DNA of 39,390 nucleotides from an uncultured Oscillospiraceae bacterium (GTDB lineage: Bacteria > Bacillota > Clostridia > Oscillospirales > Oscillospiraceae). The stretch spans positions 1 through 39,390 of the forward strand of contig CANRNU010000021.1 of NCBI GenBank assembly GCA_947632005.1, given 5' to 3'. Positions 5,508-14,207 of this stretch are shown here, piece by piece (within the stretch, counting starts at the first letter, position 1; each line of letters opens with the position of its first letter). The notes under the pieces were generated by a model that was not told the DNA's origin, ran no database searches, and saw nothing but the letters and a program-made list of their open reading frames with translations. The position numbers and the translations under genes are program-made.

Positions 5508-6254
5508 ATGGAACAGATACTGAAGATCGAAAATCTGGAGAAATCCTTCGGGGACCTGCAGGTGCTCAAGGGCATCGACCTGGAGGTGGACCGGGGCGAG
5601 GTCGTCTGCATCATCGGCGCCTCCGGCTCCGGCAAATCCACCCTCCTGCGGTGCATCAACCTGCTGGAAGAGGCCGACTCCGGCCATATCTGGTTCGGCG
5701 GCAAGGACCTGATGGACCTGAGCACCGACATCAACGCCCTGCGCCAGCGCATCGGCATGGTTTTCCAGAGCTTCAACTTATTCAACAATAAAAATGTGCT
5801 GGATAACTGCACGATGGCCCCCGTCGCTGTCCGGCACATCCCCAGGGCCCAGGCCGAGCAGACTGCCATCCGGCATCTGCGGACCGTGGGACTGGAGGAC
5901 TTCATCCACGCCGACTCCCGCCGGCTTTCCGGCGGCCAGAAGCAGCGTGTTGCCATCGCCCGGGCCCTTTGTATGGAGCCGGAGATCATGCTCTTCGACG
6001 AGCCCACCTCCGCCCTGGACCCGGAGATCGTGGGTGAGGTGCTGGACGTGATGAAGCGCCTTGCCAAAGAGGGCATGACCATGGTGGTCGTCACCCACGA
6101 GATGGCCTTCGCCAAGGAGGTCAGCGACCGGGTGGTATTCATGGACCAGGGCGTCATCCTGGAACAGGGGACCCCCGCCCAGGTCTTCGGCAACCCCAGG
6201 CAGGCCCGGACCAAGGAATTTCTGAGCCGGTATCTGGAGGACAAGAAGCAGTGA
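5508..6254 (+). CDS. Lysine ABC transporter ATPase (GlnQ/HisP-like)
   Basis: 248 residues, full length. Walker [10 protein letters not shown] (about residues 37-45), Q-loop VFQSFNLF, signature LSGGQKQR, Walker [15 protein letters not shown], and the switch His in VVTHEMAFA are all present. It powers import through the upstream permease. GAGGAGGT precedes ATG 5508 by six bases, and the gene starts ten bases after the permease stop. Its stop codon overlaps the GTG start of the next gene (GTGA at 6251-6254), which indicates one operon. Lysine is assigned from the riboswitch, not from the ATPase itself. Confidence 0.93.
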
Positions 6255-7654
6255 AGGACGTTTTTGATTTCTTCGCCCACGAGGACGACCTGCCGGACCT
6301 GGACGTCCGGGGGGCCGCAGAGCGCCTGGGCGAGGCCATCCGCTGCCGGACCGTCAACCCGGCGGACCACTCCCTTACCGATTACGGGGAGTTCGACAGG
6401 CTCCACGCCCACATCCGGGCCAGCTACCCTCATATCATGGCCGCCGGGACCTTTGAGGTCCTGGGCCACCACGCGCTGCTCATCACCCTGCCCGGCAGCG
6501 AGCCGGCCCTGCGGCCCTGCCTGTTCATGTCTCACCAGGATGTAGTGCCCGTGGTGGAGGGCACGGAGCAGGACTGGACCTATCCCGCCTTCTCCGGGAC
6601 CATCGCGGACGGCTATATCTGGGGCCGGGGCGCCCTGGACATCAAGCAGCAGGTCTTCGGCTGTCTGGAGGCGGCGGAGTATCTTCTGGCCCACGGCAGG
6701 ACCTTTGCCCGGACGGTGTACCTGGCCTTCGGGGACGACGAGGAGACGCTGAACCTGGGGGCCAAAGCCATCGCGGAGACCCTTCGGGACCGGGACGTGA
6801 CGCTTGAATTCGTCCTGGACGAGGGGGGCGGCAAGATCGAGAGCGGCGCGCCCTACGGGGCACCGGAGGCGGCGCTGTGCGCCGTGGAGCTGCTGGAGAA
6901 GGGCTACGCCGATCTGGAGCTGAGCGCCCAAAGTGCCGGCGGCCACTCCAGCCGTCCCTTTGGCGGCACCTCCCTGGGCCGCCTGAGCCAGGCTATCGCC
7001 CGTATCGTGGAGGCGCCATTCCCTGTCCGGCTCTCTCCCGTGATGGCCGGCGCGTTCAAGGCCCTGGCCCCCTATGTGACCGAGGAGCCCCTCCGGACCC
7101 TGGTCCGGGACGTGGATGCCAACGCCGACGCCATCGCCCGGTACTGCTATGGTCAGCGGACGCTGTTCCCCTACGTGACCACTACCATCGCCCCCACCGT
7201 CATCCGGGGCGGCAGCGAGGCCTGCAACGTCATGCCTCAGAACATGACCGCCGTGGTCAATTTCCGCATAGCCCAGGGCGAGACGGTCCGGGAGGTCTTT
7301 GATCACGCCAGGGCCGCTGTAGGGGACCTGGACGTGTCCATGCGATTCCTCCAGGCCAATGACCCCTCCCATGCCGCCCGCAGCGACGGCTACGGCTATG
7401 AGCGCCTGACCTGGTCCATGGGCCGATACTTCCCCGGGGTGGTGTTCGTCCCTTCCATGACCCCCGGCGCCACCGACGCCCGCCAGTACGAGATCGTCTG
7501 CGACACCTGCCTGCGGTGCAGCCCTTTCATAGGCAGCGCGGAGGAGGTGGGCCGGGCCGTCCACGGCACCAATGAGCGCATTGCCGTCCGGGCCTATGCC
7601 CAGGGCATCCGGGTTCTGGCACACCTGATGGAGCATACGGCTGTCCGGCCGTGA
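6251..7654 (+). CDS. M20 family metallopeptidase (carboxypeptidase S / dipeptidase type)
   Basis: 467 residues. The di-zinc site of family M20 is complete: His95 in SHQDVVPV, Asp130 in RGALDIK, catalytic Glu164 and ligand Glu165 in GDDEET, Asp190 in LDEGGG, and a late His (~438) in VHGTNERI. The lid-domain motif [15 protein letters not shown] is also clear. Such enzymes are cytoplasmic hydrolases of dipeptides or N-acyl amino acids. There is no signal peptide. The GTG start overlaps the ATPase stop by four bases, so the gene is the last of the lysine riboswitch operon. I infer it may release lysine, or process an imported lysine-containing compound. Exact substrate unknown. Confidence 0.9.
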
Positions 7655-7911
7655 ACCGGAAAAAAGCGAGTGGGCTTCGTTTCTTCAAGGAGAAGATCTT
7701 GAAGCGGGTTCTGCCGCATAGCGACAAGCTGTTCGGAATAGCGTGCTATGCTCCTTCCGTTCGACACAAAAAGTTTGGTCCTTCATTGACAGCAACGGAT
7801 GGCTTCATCCTGGGTACGGCGGCGAAGATGTTCACCATCGCCGGCCCGGTCATCACCTTCGGCCTCACCGCCAGCGTGGTATATGGTCTGATCCTGTGCC
7901 TGCTGCAATAA
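7651..7911 (+). pseudogene. Chimeric reading frame ending in a spoVAC 3' fragment
   Basis: A GTG at 7651 overlaps the peptidase stop, and the frame runs 86 codons. The first ~49 residues are basic and resemble nothing I know. The last 37 residues are identical to the C-terminus of SpoVAC (GFILGTAAKMFT to LILCLLQ). This is best read as the remnant 3' end of a spoVAC gene fused by chance to sequence at the right border of the inserted lysine block. It lacks most of the membrane protein and is unlikely to be functional. The junction is at about 7800. The original spoVAC terminator follows directly. Confidence 0.8.
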
Positions 7912-7929
7912 AAACGCCTATGGCCGCCG
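7801..7929 (+). repeat. Direct repeat, copy B: spoVAC 3' end
   Basis: Partner of 2552-2680. The coding part encodes exactly the same 37 residues, but the last 15 codons carry eight synonymous differences, so the two copies are diverged rather than a fresh duplication. Copy B is joined to the complete terminator. Confidence 0.9.
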
Positions 7930-7950
7930 GTCTCCGGCGGCCATAGGCGC
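7915..7950 (+). terminator. Intact spoVAC-type terminator
   Basis: Sixteen-base-pair arms CGCCTATGGCCGCCGG (7915-7930) and its complement (7934-7949) around a TCT loop, followed by CTTTATG. The left arm also exists after the full spoVAC at 2665-2679, but without its partner. Confidence 0.85.
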
Positions 7951-8137
7951 TTTATGGGTCCAGATCGTAAAGCTCAGCTTTTCGAGACGGCGCTGCCCTT
8001 TCAACAGGAATCTACGCTCCAGAATGCAGATTTCACAGAGTCATGTGCTCCAGGACTCGCCGGACGACGAAGGGATCCGCTTTTCCGGGCTGGCCTTTTT
8101 AACAGAGAAGTATGAACCGGCAAAAAAGACCGCGTAC
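7951..8137. other. Intergenic, nothing recognised
   Basis: Between the intact spoVAC-type terminator and the minus-strand gene ending at 8138. No ribosome site, tRNA or clear hairpin was seen. Confidence 0.4.
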
Positions 8138-8920
8138 TCATTCTTCGTGATCTGATAATATTCGCCGCAACGCTTTGCCGTACCGCATTGCAAGGTCGTA
8201 ATTGCTCAGCTCGGGACGGCTTTCCCAAGAGGCCAGAACGTCGTCCAGGATCTCGTCCAAATGAAGTTCCTTCTGATAACAACGGACGTCCCACAGGCGG
8301 CCTTCACGCACCAGTATCCTCAATGCCTCCTCGCGGGTAAGGTCCTTCCGCCCATCGTAATGGGTATCGCAGATATCAACGGCGCCGCAGGAATAGTTCT
8401 TCTCATAAAACTGATCAGCGGCAGGGGAATAATAGAGCTCGCCCCATCCGTATCCAAAGCCGGTGTGGGCGATCAGCTTCGGAGCGTCGGCAGGATCCGG
8501 AATACGCTTATTTGTGCCAGACTTCGCTTCTTTGTGTTCTTCCTTGGTTGTTTTTACGGTCTTGTTTTCCTCTGTCGGCGTATCCACAAGGGGAGGCTGC
8601 GCCGTCCGAGCGGGCGTCTGAGAGCTGCTTGTCCGAACAGCGGGCGCCGGGGCGGCCGGCTCCCGGGTCTGGACAACGGCAGTTTTCGGCGGGACCTGCT
8701 GCGCCGGCGCCTTGGGGCCCTGCGGCCGGCGCGTGAGAAGGTCCGGGCGATGGATCAGCAGCCCGGAGACCGTCAGAAGCGTTATCGTGGTCACCGTACG
8801 GAGCGCGACGACCCAGGGCGTGCGTACGGGAGCATCGGGATATATATGGGCAACGACCAGCACGGTAATGCTGATGGCGAGACACCACAAGATCGTTCGT
8901 TTGACGTACTGCATTTTCAT
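8138..8920 (-). CDS. Unknown two-helix membrane protein with Pro/Ala linker and soluble C-terminal domain
   Basis: 260 residues. Two predicted membrane helices (about residues 8-26 and 36-57) are followed by a long low-complexity linker rich in Pro, Ala, Thr and Lys (about 63-145). A compact C-terminal domain (about 148-260) contains GFGYGWGELYYSPAAD, a Cys pair in YSCGAVDICDTHYDG and a helical end. I do not recognise this domain. AGGAGG eight bases upstream of ATG 8920 makes the start secure. The gene stands alone: the flanking regions are non-coding, and it is transcribed away from the PadR operon. The layout suggests a membrane-anchored domain held away from the membrane by a flexible tether. 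Confidence 0.75.
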   Translation of the reverse strand: MKMQYVKRTILWCLAISITVLVVAHIYPDAPVRTPWVVALRTVTTITLLTVSGLLIHRPDLLTRRPQGPKAPAQQVPPKTAVVQTREPAAPAPAVRTSSSQTPARTAQPPLVDTPTEENKTVKTTKEEHKEAKSGTNKRIPDPADAPKLIAHTGFGYGWGELYYSPAADQFYEKNYSCGAVDICDTHYDGRKDLTREEALRILVREGRLWDVRCYQKELHLDEILDDVLASWESRPELSNYDLAMRYGKALRRILSDHEE

Positions 8921-10757: not shown

Positions 10758-10791
10758 AAAACAGCCCCTGTCGTGAGACAGGGGCTGTTTT
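10758..10791. terminator. Bidirectional terminator
   Basis: Perfect 15-bp arms AAAACAGCCCCTGTC (10758-10772) and its complement (10777-10791) around GTGA. The flanking A and T runs serve both the plus-strand DUF4097 gene and the minus-strand ABC operon that ends at 10816. Confidence 0.9.
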
Positions 10792-10815: not shown

Positions 10816-11604
10816 CTATTTCATGTAATAGGCCGCCACCACGCTGGTGACCAGGATGCCGTCCACCTCGCCCTTCATAAGGGCCTGGAACAGACCGTCG
10901 GTGTTGGTCTGATAGATGACGGAGCCAAGGCTGTCCACGAATTTCTTGTTCTGATACAGGATATCCTCGTCCACCACGGCCACCCCCAGGGTCTTGCCCT
11001 TCAGGCCGGAGCGGCGGCGGATGTGGCTGCCGGCACGGGCCACCAGCACATACTGGCTGGTCAGATAGGCGGGGGAGTAGTCGAAGTCCGAGGACAGGTC
11101 CGCCTCCGGCACCGCCATGGCGATGTCGATGTTCCCGGCGTTCAGCTCGATCTGGGCGTCGGCGATGTTGATGGGATAGAAATTGATGCCCCAGCCCAGG
11201 TATCCGCAGATGAAGGTGATGAGCTCCACGTCGAAGCCCGCATACCCTCCGCCGGAGATATAGCTCATGGGCATATTGGTGGTGTCGATGCCCACGGTCA
11301 CGAACCGCTCGGGCTTTTCCTCCTCGATCTCGGACAGGGCGTCGCTGTCGCCCCGGATGTTTACCAGGTTCTCCCCGAACCAGGTGATGGACAGGTTGCG
11401 CAGCGTGTTGCTGGCGGCCAGCTCCTCCATGGCGGCGGTGACGAACTTCTGCAGCCGGTCTCCCTTCCGGAAGGCGATATAATAGCTGCCCTCGCCGCTG
11501 TACTCATCCACCACCCGGTAGCCGCTGCCAAAGTCGCAGCCGGCGAGCGGGAAAAGCATGGCGAGACACAGCGCGACACAGACAATGGGCCGGAGCTTTT
11601 TCAT
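10816..11604 (-). CDS. Substrate-binding lipoprotein with circularly permuted SBP family 3 domain
   Basis: 262 residues. A lipoprotein signal ends LAGC (Cys23). Immediately after, residues ~29-80 read like the C-terminal end of a normal family 3 binding protein: YRVVDEY, YYIAFRKGDRLQKF, an alpha helix, then LRNLSITWFGEN. After a linker (81-98), residues 99-262 read like the N-terminal beginning and middle: FVTVGIDTTNMPMSY, YAGFDVELITFICGYLGW, FDYSPAYLTSQYVLVA, GEVDGILVTSVVAAYYMK. The protein stops exactly where the first module would normally continue. A circular permutation is the simplest reading. It is the last gene of an amino acid ABC operon that has a second, conventional binding protein. 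Ribosome site GAGGAGG precedes ATG 11604. Confidence 0.8.
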   Translation of the reverse strand: MKKLRPIVCVALCLAMLFPLAGCDFGSGYRVVDEYSGEGSYYIAFRKGDRLQKFVTAAMEELAASNTLRNLSITWFGENLVNIRGDSDALSEIEEEKPERFVTVGIDTTNMPMSYISGGGYAGFDVELITFICGYLGWGINFYPINIADAQIELNAGNIDIAMAVPEADLSSDFDYSPAYLTSQYVLVARAGSHIRRRSGLKGKTLGVAVVDEDILYQNKKFVDSLGSVIYQTNTDGLFQALMKGEVDGILVTSVVAAYYMK

Positions 11605-11706: not shown

Positions 11707-12492
11707 TCACGTCTGGTTGTAGCTGTCCAAAAACCGGCGCGTCCGCTCCTGGGTGGGGGCATTGATGACCTGCCGGGGGTCGCCCTCCTCCACGATCACG
11801 CCTTCGTCCATGAAGATGACGTGGGTGGATACGTCCCGGGCGAAGGCCATCTCATGGGTGACGATGACCATGGTGGTCTCCCGCTGGGCCAGCTCCCGGA
11901 TGACCCGCAGCACCTCCTGGGTCAGCTCCGGGTCCAGGGCGCTGGTGGGCTCGTCGAAGCACAGGATGTCCGGCTGCAGGGCCAGGGCCCGGGCAATGGC
12001 CACCCGCTGCTGCTGGCCGCCGGAGAGCTGGTGGGGGTAGTTGTCCATCCGGTCGGAGAGGCCCATCTGCCCCAGGAGCTGCCGGGCCTCGCTGTCGATG
12101 CGCTGGTATATCTCCCTCTTCCGGGCCTTGAAGTCCGGCGCCTCCCGGGCCAGGAGCTGCCCGGCCAGGGTCACGTTCTGCAGGGCCGTATACTGGGGGA
12201 AGAGGTTGAAGGACTGGAACACCAGCCCGAAGTGCAGTCGCTTGCGGCGGATGTCCGCCTCCCGCTGGGTGGTCGGATCGGCTGCGTCGAACAGGGTCTC
12301 CCCGTTCACAGCGATGGAACCGCCGTCGGGCTTTTCCAGAAAGTTCAGACACCGCAGCAGCGTGGTCTTGCCGGAGCCGGAGGAGCCGATGATGGATACC
12401 ACCTGGCCCTTCTCCAGGGAGAAGCTGATGCCCTTCAGGACCTCCGTCTGCCCAAAGCTCTTGCGGATGTCCTTTACGTCCAATATCGCCAT
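11707..12492 (-). CDS. Polar amino acid ABC transporter ATPase
   Basis: 261 residues. Walker [11 protein letters not shown]-loop [11 protein letters not shown], signature [15 protein letters not shown], Walker [15 protein letters not shown] and the H-loop [11 protein letters not shown] are complete. A slightly longer insert than in GlnQ (about residues 64-85) precedes the Q-loop. It drives the permease encoded 14 bases upstream. The transported amino acid cannot be told from the sequence; no riboswitch is visible in front of this operon. Confidence 0.93.
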
Positions 12493-12506: not shown

Positions 12507-13193
12507 TCAGCGGAAATAGTCCAGGCGCTTCTCCAGCCGGCCCAGCGCCACGGTCACCAGTCCGTTGAAGATCAGGTAATAGACCGCGGTGAAGAACAGC
12601 GGCCAGATAGCCCCGGCGATGCCGTGGGAGCCCTTCAGGAAGGACTGGCCCGCCCAGATGATCTCCTGCAGGGCGACGATCCGGGCCAGGGCGGTGTCCT
12701 TGACCAGGGTGATGATCTCGTTGGACATGGGCGGCACGATGCGCTTGATGACCTGCAGGAGGGTCACCTTATAGAATATCTGTCCCTTGGTCATGCCCAG
12801 CACCAGGCCGGCCTCCTGCTGTCCCTTGGGGATGGACTGGATGCCGCCCCGGTATATCTCGGAAAAGTAGCAGGAGTAGTTGAAAATGAACGCGATGGCC
12901 GAAGCCAGGAACCGCCCGGACTCGCCGCTGCCCCAGATGTTGTTTTTCAGCACCATGCCGGGGAAGTAGAAGATGATCAGCAGCTGGATCATCAGGGGCG
13001 TGCCCCGCACGATCCAAACTACCGTCCGCGTCAGCCAATTGAGGGGCTTGAAACGGCTCATGGAGCCGAAGGCGATCACCAACCCCAGGGGGAGCGCTCC
13101 CACGCCGGTGACGAAGAACAGCTTGAGCGTCTGTAAAAATCCAACGTTCAGGGCCTTGAGCACCACCGGCATTTGTTGAAGGATCAGTTCCAT
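12507..13193 (-). CDS. Polar amino acid ABC transporter permease
   Basis: 228 residues from the ATG at 13193, which has GGGAG six bases upstream; the frame is open further upstream into the repeat element but without a proper site. About five membrane helices. Family features are LQTLKLFFVTGVGALPLG, the IVRGTPLMIQL motif and the EAA loop region QEAGLVLGMTKGQIFYKV. The usual first EAA Ala is Gly here, which is tolerated. It pairs with the ATPase at 11707-12492. Unlike the permease of the lysine operon it has no extra N-terminal region. A MITE-like repeat separates it from the binding protein gene. Confidence 0.9.
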   Translation of the reverse strand: MELILQQMPVVLKALNVGFLQTLKLFFVTGVGALPLGLVIAFGSMSRFKPLNWLTRTVVWIVRGTPLMIQLLIIFYFPGMVLKNNIWGSGESGRFLASAIAFIFNYSCYFSEIYRGGIQSIPKGQQEAGLVLGMTKGQIFYKVTLLQVIKRIVPPMSNEIITLVKDTALARIVALQEIIWAGQSFLKGSHGIAGAIWPLFFTAVYYLIFNGLVTVALGRLEKRLDYFR

Positions 13194-13240
13194 GTCGTTC
13201 TCCCGGAAAACAGAAATCATCGCCGCAGGCGATGTACGGA

Positions 13241-13364
13241 AAAGGCTCCCTTGTGTAAAGGGAGCTGTCATGCGGAGCATGACTGAGGGATTGTACCTGT
13301 AAGAGCAAGTACAACCCCTCCGTCTCGGCTTCGCCGTGCCGCCTCCCCTTACACAGGGGAGGCA
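13241..13364. repeat. MITE-like dispersed repeat, copy 1 (inside ABC operon)
   Basis: About 124 bp starting AAAGGCTCCCTTGTG and ending in CCTCCCC-N7-GGGGAGGC. Each end folds into its own GC-rich hairpin, and the two ends are imperfect inverted repeats of each other. The core TGACTGAGGGATTGT is shared word for word with copy 2 at 26695-26824. No coding capacity. It lies 15 bases after the binding-protein stop and 48 bases before the permease start, so its hairpins are in the operon's mRNA. Confidence 0.85.
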
Positions 13365-13379: not shown

Positions 13380-14207
13380 TTACGCCGCAGGGGCCTCCTC
13401 TTCGGCGGCCTCCTCTTCGGCGGTCTGGTCGATCAGTGCGGCCTGGACGCCGTAGGTCTCGGCGATCTCCTGCATGGTGCCGTCCTCCAGGGCGGCGGCG
13501 AAGAAGTCATTCAGAGCGGCGGCCAGGTCGGAGCCCTTCCGGAAGCCCACGCCGTACTCCTCGCTGTTGAGGTTGATGGTGTTGACCAGATCCTCGTAGC
13601 CGGTGCCCTCGCCTACCATGGCGGCGGCCATCAACAGGTCGATGACGGCGGCGTCAGAGGAGCCGGCGCTGACCTCCAGCAGAGCCATGGCCTGGCTCTG
13701 AACGGGTTCGGTCTCATAGCCCAGGGCCTCCACCTCGGCCTCGCCGGCGCTGCCGGCCTCCACCGCGAAGACCAGGTCGGCCATGTCCTCGGCGGTCTCA
13801 TAATCGCCGGCCTTGTCGGCGGGCAGGATCACGGTCTGGGCGTTGTTGCAGTAGGCGTTGGAGCACTCCATGGCCTCGGTGACCTCGTCGGTGAGGGTCA
13901 TGCCGTTCCAGACCACGTCGATGGTCTTGGCCTCCAGCTCCAGGACCTTGTTGTCCCAGTCGATCTCCACGAACTCCACGTCCACGCCCAGGCTCTCGGC
14001 AAAGGCGGCGGCCATGTCGGCGTCAAAGCCGATCCAGTTGCCGTCCTCGTCCTGGTAGTCCATGGGCTCGAACTCGGTGATGCCCACCACCAGGGTGCCC
14101 TTGTCCTGGACATAGGCCAGGTCGCTCTCCTCTTCGTCGGCCAGGGCGAAGACGGACATGCTCAGCAGCATCAGCGCCGCGAGGGTGAGGGAAAGAATCT
14201 TTTTCAT
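13380..14207 (-). CDS. Secreted (non-lipidated) amino acid substrate-binding protein, SBP family 3
   Basis: 275 residues in normal domain order: GTLVVGITEFEPMDYQDEDGNW, then IGFDADMAAAFAESLG, a DVVWNGMTLTDEV segment, and the C-terminal YGVGFRKGSDLAAALNDFF helix. The signal peptide ends ALA-D at about residue 23 with no lipobox Cys, which is unusual for a monoderm binding protein. It ends in an acidic tail EEEAAEEEAPAA. First gene of the minus-strand operon. AGGAGG lies ten bases before ATG 14207. It may depend on the lipid-anchored permuted protein encoded at the other end of the operon for membrane retention, which is inference. Confidence 0.9.
   Translation of the reverse strand: MKKILSLTLAALMLLSMSVFALADEEESDLAYVQDKGTLVVGITEFEPMDYQDEDGNWIGFDADMAAAFAESLGVDVEFVEIDWDNKVLELEAKTIDVVWNGMTLTDEVTEAMECSNAYCNNAQTVILPADKAGDYETAEDMADLVFAVEAGSAGEAEVEALGYETEPVQSQAMALLEVSAGSSDAAVIDLLMAAAMVGEGTGYEDLVNTINLNSEEYGVGFRKGSDLAAALNDFFAAALEDGTMQEIAETYGVQAALIDQTAEEEAAEEEAPAA

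Follow-up and report, generated by a model that had tools for sequence, protein, structure and literature searches.

The gene at positions 10816–11604 (minus strand) very probably encodes a lipid-anchored solute-binding protein (SBP) of family 3 (type II) whose chain is naturally circularly permuted, through one of a series of such rotations repeated among the SBPs of its phylum. The stretch of DNA analysed here, referred to as the window, comprises 39,390 nucleotides from an uncultured Oscillospiraceae bacterium, and the gene was recognised from the ORF listing, Pfam and HMM matches as encoding a protein of 262 amino acids. At the level of the sequence, the circular permutation is real and conserved. 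The rotated order, which the first-pass annotation had proposed from the letters alone, was borne out by two-segment HMM and BLASTP alignments, by matches to the PDB entry 4zv1 and by hhalign.

Segment Order of the Window Protein

The protein begins with a signal peptide and lipobox (11536–11604, minus strand, as are all parts of the gene), where the directly read motif LFPLAGC (residues 17–23) places the lipobox cysteine at LAG-C23 (codon 11536–11538), marking a bacterial lipoprotein. Three parts follow. Residues 26–77 (11374–11529) are equivalent to the C-terminal end of an ordinary SBP according to HMM, BLASTP and profile comparisons. Residues 78–101 (11302–11373), the stretch between the two HMM segments, form a linker of 24 amino acids leading from the old C-terminus to the old N-terminus. 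Residues 102–261 (10822–11301) correspond to the first three quarters of the ordinary chain, as judged from HMM, Pfam and PDB matches. A C-terminal-type segment right after the lipobox had been described before and was confirmed, but its start lies earlier than had been given, at YRVVDE, before YYIAFRKGD.

Pfam assigned the protein to SBP_bac_3 (PF00497) with 68.1 bits against a gathering cut-off of 26.4 (E 8e-19), the match falling into two stretches, the best of which covered residues 102–243. With an HMM of 221 positions built from 18 ordinary-order SBPs, residues 26–77 matched profile positions 166–220 (15 bits) and residues 102–261 matched positions 2–163 (78 bits). The segment order of PF00497 is therefore rotated, positions 166–220 standing before 2–163 instead of following in the usual N to C direction, and the two-segment HMM alignment that had been suggested as a check returned exactly this reversal. 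Nearly all domain positions are covered, two profile positions being absent at the seam between the segments. When the window protein was doubled head to tail, a single match of 86 bits ran across the join from position 2 to position 220, a gain of 8 bits. Joining the C-terminus to the N-terminus restores the domain with almost no loss at the seam, as had been predicted. Among the other permuted proteins, doubling brought a clear gain only for L073 (77 bits) and little or none for most. With the old ends linked through 24 residues, the domain complete and the new ends lying inside the old chain, the protein has the make-up of a circularly permuted SBP.

The swap of blocks was also seen with single sequences. 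In a phmmer search of the PDB, residues 98–261 aligned with 19–190 of the 3hv1 chain and residues 34–81 with 205–252; in this single-sequence search, the N-terminal block alone was not significant (i-Evalue 36 for 3hv1 and 1.1 for 4zv1). BLASTP against the ordinary SBP of locus L060 aligned residues 104–261 with 53–214 (E 2e-22) and residues 26–86 with 218–279 (39% identity, E 1.1e-10 in a one-sequence search). In a profile of 40 permuted proteins, positions 5–58 matched the C-terminus of AncQR (4zv1, 179–233; E 4.2e-11) and positions 78–245 matched residues 8–176 of the same chain. When 30 N-terminal segments of the window's clade were combined into a profile and compared with the ordinary C-terminus by hhalign, the probability was 97.8, with E 6.8e-13 and a score of 74.4; the best of 30 column-shuffled control profiles scored 18.8.

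Conservation of the Gene

In a search of 149 related genomes, a strong match was found in 32 of the 35 genomes of the same genus, the window's own included; the three without a match are 64, 82 and 84% complete. Values of dN were well below dS in the seven orthologue pairs that were run, with ratios of about 0.07–0.25. Of 33 named relatives, 32 are Oscillospiraceae genomes, many of them carrying the labels Lapin and Red_deer, which we read as rabbit and deer; the remaining one, a Victivallaceae genome, matched weakly and only in part. The named relatives are metagenome assemblies or uncultured. Orthologues in Oscillospiraceae, which the first-pass annotation had recommended looking for, are present throughout most of the genus and in other genera. 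Counted by eye, a permuted SBP of some kind occurs in at least 16 of the 56 genomes searched from the same family outside the genus. The window's own genome holds eight ordinary single-domain SBPs, that of the operon included, and one permuted SBP. To the question of a rarity or a conserved clade, which had been left undecided, the answer is that the rotated order is conserved in the window's clade and recurs in others.

Operon and Genomic Neighbourhood

On the minus strand, the genes are ordered as ordinary SBP, permease, ATPase and permuted lipoprotein, followed by a palindrome and a convergent gene. The ordinary-order SBP_bac_3 protein (13380–14207, minus strand) was identified by Pfam and HMM. 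The permease of the same importer (12507–13280, minus strand) has a HEQRo_perm_3TM domain over the cut-off, and its true start codon may lie inside the listed ORF. The ATPase (11707–12492, minus strand) is of the type found in polar amino acid ABC importers, its best NCBIfam models, TcyN and GlnQ, both scoring below their cut-offs. Between the convergent genes, a palindrome with 15-bp arms and a GTGA loop was read directly at 10758–10791, where a scan gives a shorter stem (10779–10764); it is likely a two-way terminator at the end of the operon.

The window's clade is a separate clade of companion lipoproteins, encoded mostly by the last gene behind an ordinary SBP, a permease and an ATPase. 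Among 36 related companion genes, 23 lie at most 300 bp downstream of an importer ATPase on the same strand; three lie about 0.9 kb downstream, two are on the opposite strand, and for eight the retrieved locus contains no such ATPase.

The ordinary SBP of the operon (13380–14207) carries a signal peptide without a lipobox (VFALADEEE), and no lipobox was found in the printed stretch of the own-genome SBPs of L031, L032, L035 and L036 either. SBPs without a lipobox are unusual if the organism is single-membraned.

In L041, L042, L043, L050, L086–L089, L091 and L092, the companion is located near two further ATPase genes. A functional link between the companion and these ABC ATPases was considered and rejected, since gene lengths and start sequences in four loci suggest a housekeeping ECF cassette. 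We take the order in L041, L042, L043 and L086 to be methyltransferase, EcfA1, EcfA2 and EcfT, with TruA presumably next in L042 and L043. This ECF-like gene order beside the companion in the inspected loci indicates that the companion's position is partly conserved beyond the operon.

Census of Rotated Binding Proteins

Targeted searches yielded 95 distinct permuted single-domain SBPs, along with 82 ordinary SBPs and one truncated ORF that was left unassigned. Three cut sites were recognised by profile position, namely A (about 160–172; 88 proteins), B (about 91–106; six proteins) and C (about 100–128; one protein). The permuted SBPs come from 90 genomes that fall into 18 groups at family level; group f157 (site B) shares only the phylum with the window and so belongs to another class. 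All 178 census rows have distinct main segments, the permuted proteins of L103 and L104, from two genomes, being nearly identical; ORFs over 450 amino acids, loci L163–L195 and repeated cores were left out. These counts are not frequencies, as the query profiles held site-A proteins only, candidates were taken among the matches listed and some per genome were scored; the excess of site A is for the same reason partly an effect of sampling. In a phylum-wide search, the listed matches outside the class that started within the first 21 profile positions were either site-B proteins (G583, G847) or ordinary SBPs lying in tandem or next to each other (G887, G898, G815).

In other genera and families, rotated SBPs serve as the SBP of whole importer operons. 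Outside the companion clade, a permease gene adjoins 28 of 37 permuted SBPs on the same strand, accompanied in 26 of these by an ATPase gene, and 27 of the 28 have no second SBP ORF in the fetched locus. Most permuted relatives outside the window's clade look like primary ABC importer receptors.

Locus L064 encodes two site-B SBP lipoproteins (6014–6820 and 7846–8649) that are 91% identical to each other (186 of 204 columns) and only 26–27% identical to the best ordinary SBP in the set.

Phylogeny and Close Pairs of Different Order

For tree building, permuted sequences were re-rotated into the ordinary column order and aligned to one profile; the counts of changes obtained in this way give no direction. 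A tree of 66 rows was computed after dropping rows over 72% identical to a kept row. A tree of 78 rows leaves out the ordinary long-branch own-genome rows L031, L032 and L035–L038, the distant rows from L064 and any row more than 77% identical to one already kept with the same order. With the 66 rows, the AU test rejected a single clade of all site-A proteins (p 2.8e-5) as well as a single clade of all permuted proteins (p 1.9e-38). The 78-row tree requires 12 changes between ordinary and permuted order, of which well-supported branches make at least eight unavoidable, or 15 if the sites are distinguished; the 20 companion rows are all found on the same side of one branch.

Proteins of different order may be closely related. 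The permuted protein of L055, from another family of the order, and the ordinary SBP of L089, from the window's genus, are identical in 163 of 215 positions (76%). The corresponding values are 147 of 209 (70%) for the permuted/ordinary pair L048 and L060 and 138 of 211 (65%) for L059 and L085, and the permuted proteins of L141 and L143 share 62% identity with the ordinary SBP of L041. BLASTP of the raw proteins returned two main blocks in swapped order for all eight permuted/ordinary pairs that were run; a ninth pair, of which both members are permuted, aligned as one block.

The clearest case is the clade of the window's operon type (12 rows, support 100/99), which contains nine ordinary SBPs, that of the window included, together with L140 (site A), L196 (site B) and L073 (site C). 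Compared in separate blocks, L196 and L199 show 56–75% identity with ordinary SBPs from the window's genus. If these proteins are taken as one transporter subfamily, it shows four circular orders: ordinary (window), A (L140, L141, L143), B (L196, L199) and C (L073). By sequence comparison, the window protein exemplifies a rotation that recurs among family 3 SBPs.

Lipid Anchor, Linker and Side of the Tether

In the first set, a lipobox cysteine preceded the rotated domain in 49 of 49 permuted proteins under a relaxed rule; a stricter rule misses 11 of the 49. In the larger set, the rule identified a lipobox in 92 of 95 permuted versus 64 of 82 ordinary proteins, the search stretch being 12 residues longer for the permuted ones. 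Of the other three permuted proteins, L099 has a cysteine that was seen by eye, and L003 and L019 correspond to the genes of L076 and L083, in which the cysteine is present. The median distance from the cysteine to the first matched position is four residues in permuted versus 23 in ordinary proteins. Across the 95 permuted proteins, the old ends are connected by 18–31 residues, with a median of 24.

In type II SBPs, both old termini are located in lobe 1. Site A is taken to lie before the strand that leads back from lobe 2. From this family 3 topology, the membrane tether is expected to start at lobe 2 and no longer at lobe 1. A tether on either side may be acceptable to a homodimeric permease, which could explain why the rotation is tolerated. 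The companion as a simple substitute anchor for an unanchored SBP was rejected, because ordinary SBPs bearing a lipobox also adjoin companions.

Ligand Contacts

The roles of the contact residues, comprising the Thr/Arg clamp of the TxxR motif, the late Asp, the first-strand Asp and the aromatic residue, were assumed to be those of LAO and GlnBP. The TxxR arginine and the late Asp hold the α-carboxylate and α-amino groups of the ligand. Permuted SBPs outside the companion clade mostly keep these contacts (Thr in 33, clamp Arg in 30 and late Asp in 34 of 37). In the companions of the window's genus, the first-strand Asp is present in 24 of 24 proteins and the aromatic residue is replaced by Asn in all 24, the late Asp column holds Ser in 23 and Thr in one, and Arg occupies the clamp column in three of 24. 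The T and R clamp columns are among the most variable of these companions, with entropy ranks of 177 and 206 of 207. The TxxR Arg and late Asp expected of an α-amino acid receptor are thus mostly or wholly lost from the companions of this genus; in companions of other genera, the late Asp is kept in eight of 11. The description of the window protein as an amino acid binding protein is doubtful for the window's clade, since most of the canonical contacts are replaced, and the window protein is unlikely to be a receptor of the ordinary α-amino acid type.

The ordinary SBP of the operon type also has no clamp Arg (Val in 21 and Ala in one of 22 proteins), while Thr and the late Asp are kept in all 22. 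Loss of the clamp Arg is therefore not peculiar to the companion, and the substrate of the importer is itself uncertain; the importer may take an unusual substrate.

Proposed Origin

In the proposed scheme, a linker of about 24 residues bridges the ordinary C- and N-termini, and the new ends lie at a cut in the loop that precedes the strand returning from the second lobe. Most probably, an SBP gene was duplicated in tandem and fused in frame with its copy, after which the outer parts were lost; rotations of this kind have very probably occurred repeatedly among SBPs of the phylum. As judged from topology, the folded product should be an ordinary two-lobed flytrap with its tether leaving from lobe 2. 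We tentatively suggest, at somewhat below even likelihood, that in the companion clade of the window's genus, where the contacts are replaced, the protein docks on the importer of its operon, either binding a different ligand or playing an accessory part, these two roles being about equally likely.

Two arrangements of ordinary domains were found in the phylum. L144 (1312–2862) encodes a protein of 516 amino acids with two ordinary SBP domains separated by about 10 residues, next to a permease gene. L147 (877–2496) holds two adjacent ordinary SBP genes 12 bp apart, which appeared in the genome search as one match with a single TAG inside. The L144 fusion and the L147 gene pair are possible intermediates on the route to a permuted SBP. 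Giant fusions of SBPs with importer domains are encoded by L066 (620–4291, 1223 amino acids), L200 (2128–5535) and L202 (2720–6127; 1135 amino acids each). Each starts with an SBP's second half, which is followed by at least one complete SBP and by a first half cut near site B, and then runs on into importer domains; L066 ends in a permease domain, and L200 and L202 have permease and ATPase matches. Either all units of these fusions are permuted, or the array is closed by its two halves.

Alternative Explanations

The rotated order could be the chance leftover of a tandem SBP duplication, cut on its 5' side and without a selected function. Tandem SBP fusions do exist in the phylum (the 516-residue protein of L144), and tandem proteins such as 6h30 and 4q0c give junction-spanning profile matches in the same apparent order. 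Against this, the window gene has its signal peptide and lipobox directly before the rotated domain, is kept in 32 of 35 genomes of the genus and shows dN far below dS in seven pairs, and a functionless truncated duplicate was rejected on the genus-wide conservation and the dN/dS values; it is scarcely credible. The case named at the outset as one that would overturn the permutation, a tandem duplication truncated at its 5' end and lacking close homologues of the same order, fails because full-length homologues of the same order occur in the genus, in other genera and in other families. A single ancient permutation, with the ordinary-order tree neighbours being errors of short alignments, would fit the sharing of site A by 88 of the 95 permuted proteins, although the queries were site-A only, and the position of 20 of 20 companion rows on one side of a branch. 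It is contradicted by the AU tests, which reject one clade, by the eight changes forced by well-supported branches, by pairs of 65–76% identity that differ in order, and by the distinct sites A, B and C, with the B and C proteins being close to ordinary SBPs of the window's operon type. We regard a single event as very unlikely, and recurrent rotation is the preferred reading.

Two views on the companion's function are each rather less than evenly likely. It may be a true receptor for a solute other than an ordinary α-amino acid, feeding the operon's permease. The first-strand Asp kept in 24 of 24 proteins, the two contact positions fixed anew (Asn in 24, Ser in 23), the linkage to an importer ATPase in 23 of 36 cases and the missing clamp Arg in the operon-type ordinary SBP, whose importer may take an unusual substrate, all point in this direction; the variability of the clamp T and R columns is, however, unusual for a selected pocket. 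That same variable clamp loop and the replaced contacts would suit a companion that no longer binds a small ligand and instead assists or regulates either the importer or the ordinary SBP that has no anchor, and in the window it is indeed the companion that has a lipobox and the ordinary SBP that has none. Yet lipobox-bearing ordinary SBPs adjoin the companion as well (L070, L071, L075, L080, L081, L082, L086), and the invariant first-strand Asp likewise speaks against an accessory role of this kind.

Taken jointly, the preferred reading of recurrent rotation would be that amino acid SBPs of the phylum have repeatedly been rotated at a hot spot, shifting the lipid tether from lobe 1 to lobe 2, and that this was tolerated or favoured since a homodimeric permease accepts a tether on either side; one transporter subfamily would then have come to hold four circular orders, and the companion clade would be a rotated copy made into a new partner that is not an ordinary amino acid receptor. 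We consider this combined account to be close to, but a little short of, evenly likely.

Relation to Known Systems

The window protein resembles members of SBP_bac_3 (PF00497; GlnH, LAO, ArtJ, AncQR; type II/cluster F) in that nearly all domain positions are present, and differs from them in being rotated and, within its genus, in the replacement of most canonical contacts. The tandem domains of GlnPQ (6h30) and BvgS (4q0c) likewise present a C-terminal part followed by the next N-terminal part, so that a permuted profile matches across the junction. These proteins have two domains per chain, which we take to be complete, whereas the window protein is a single domain with exchanged ends. No PDB chain with the permuted order as a single domain was found among the best 60 of 339 sequences.

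Permuted SBPs are a kind already known from the type I case of TpMglB-2 (Tp0684), a circularly permuted glucose-binding lipoprotein, for which a "Type Ic/Cluster Bc" is proposed and whose topology is regarded as possibly an adaptation to anchoring in the excerpted account (PMC4990184). According to the same excerpts (PMC4990184), it shares with the window protein a natural permutation, a lipid anchor, the role of an SBP of an ABC importer and relatives in Gram-positive gut bacteria; it has, however, a type I glucose/galactose fold, cut in the N lobe and with a fourth hinge crossing, and those excerpts describe one topology and do not propose repeated events. The proteins studied here, in contrast, are of the type II amino acid family, where cuts occur at three sites and the order has changed repeatedly. 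The window protein falls outside Type Ic, which has a type I sugar-binding fold, because its PDB relatives by sequence are amino acid binding proteins. These relatives are, we assume, of type II. Circularly permuted constructs of ribose-binding protein are mentioned in excerpts of an article on the evolution of periplasmic binding proteins (PMC10601554), and a further article, in its excerpted part, is about other families (PMC3779223). Judged by title and the start of the abstract, no paper on naturally permuted family 3 SBPs was found among the open-licence matches listed.

The surprising part is the repeated rotation among close relatives. To our knowledge, a natural circular permutation is usually regarded as an old event that happened once. 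In the present case, one receptor exists in both ordinary and rotated form among close relatives, with up to 76% identity and beside the same kind of importer genes, and such pairs make the effect of chain order and tether site on folding, binding and docking to the importer directly testable. Annotation by one domain hit conceals this rotated fold in many gut bacteria.
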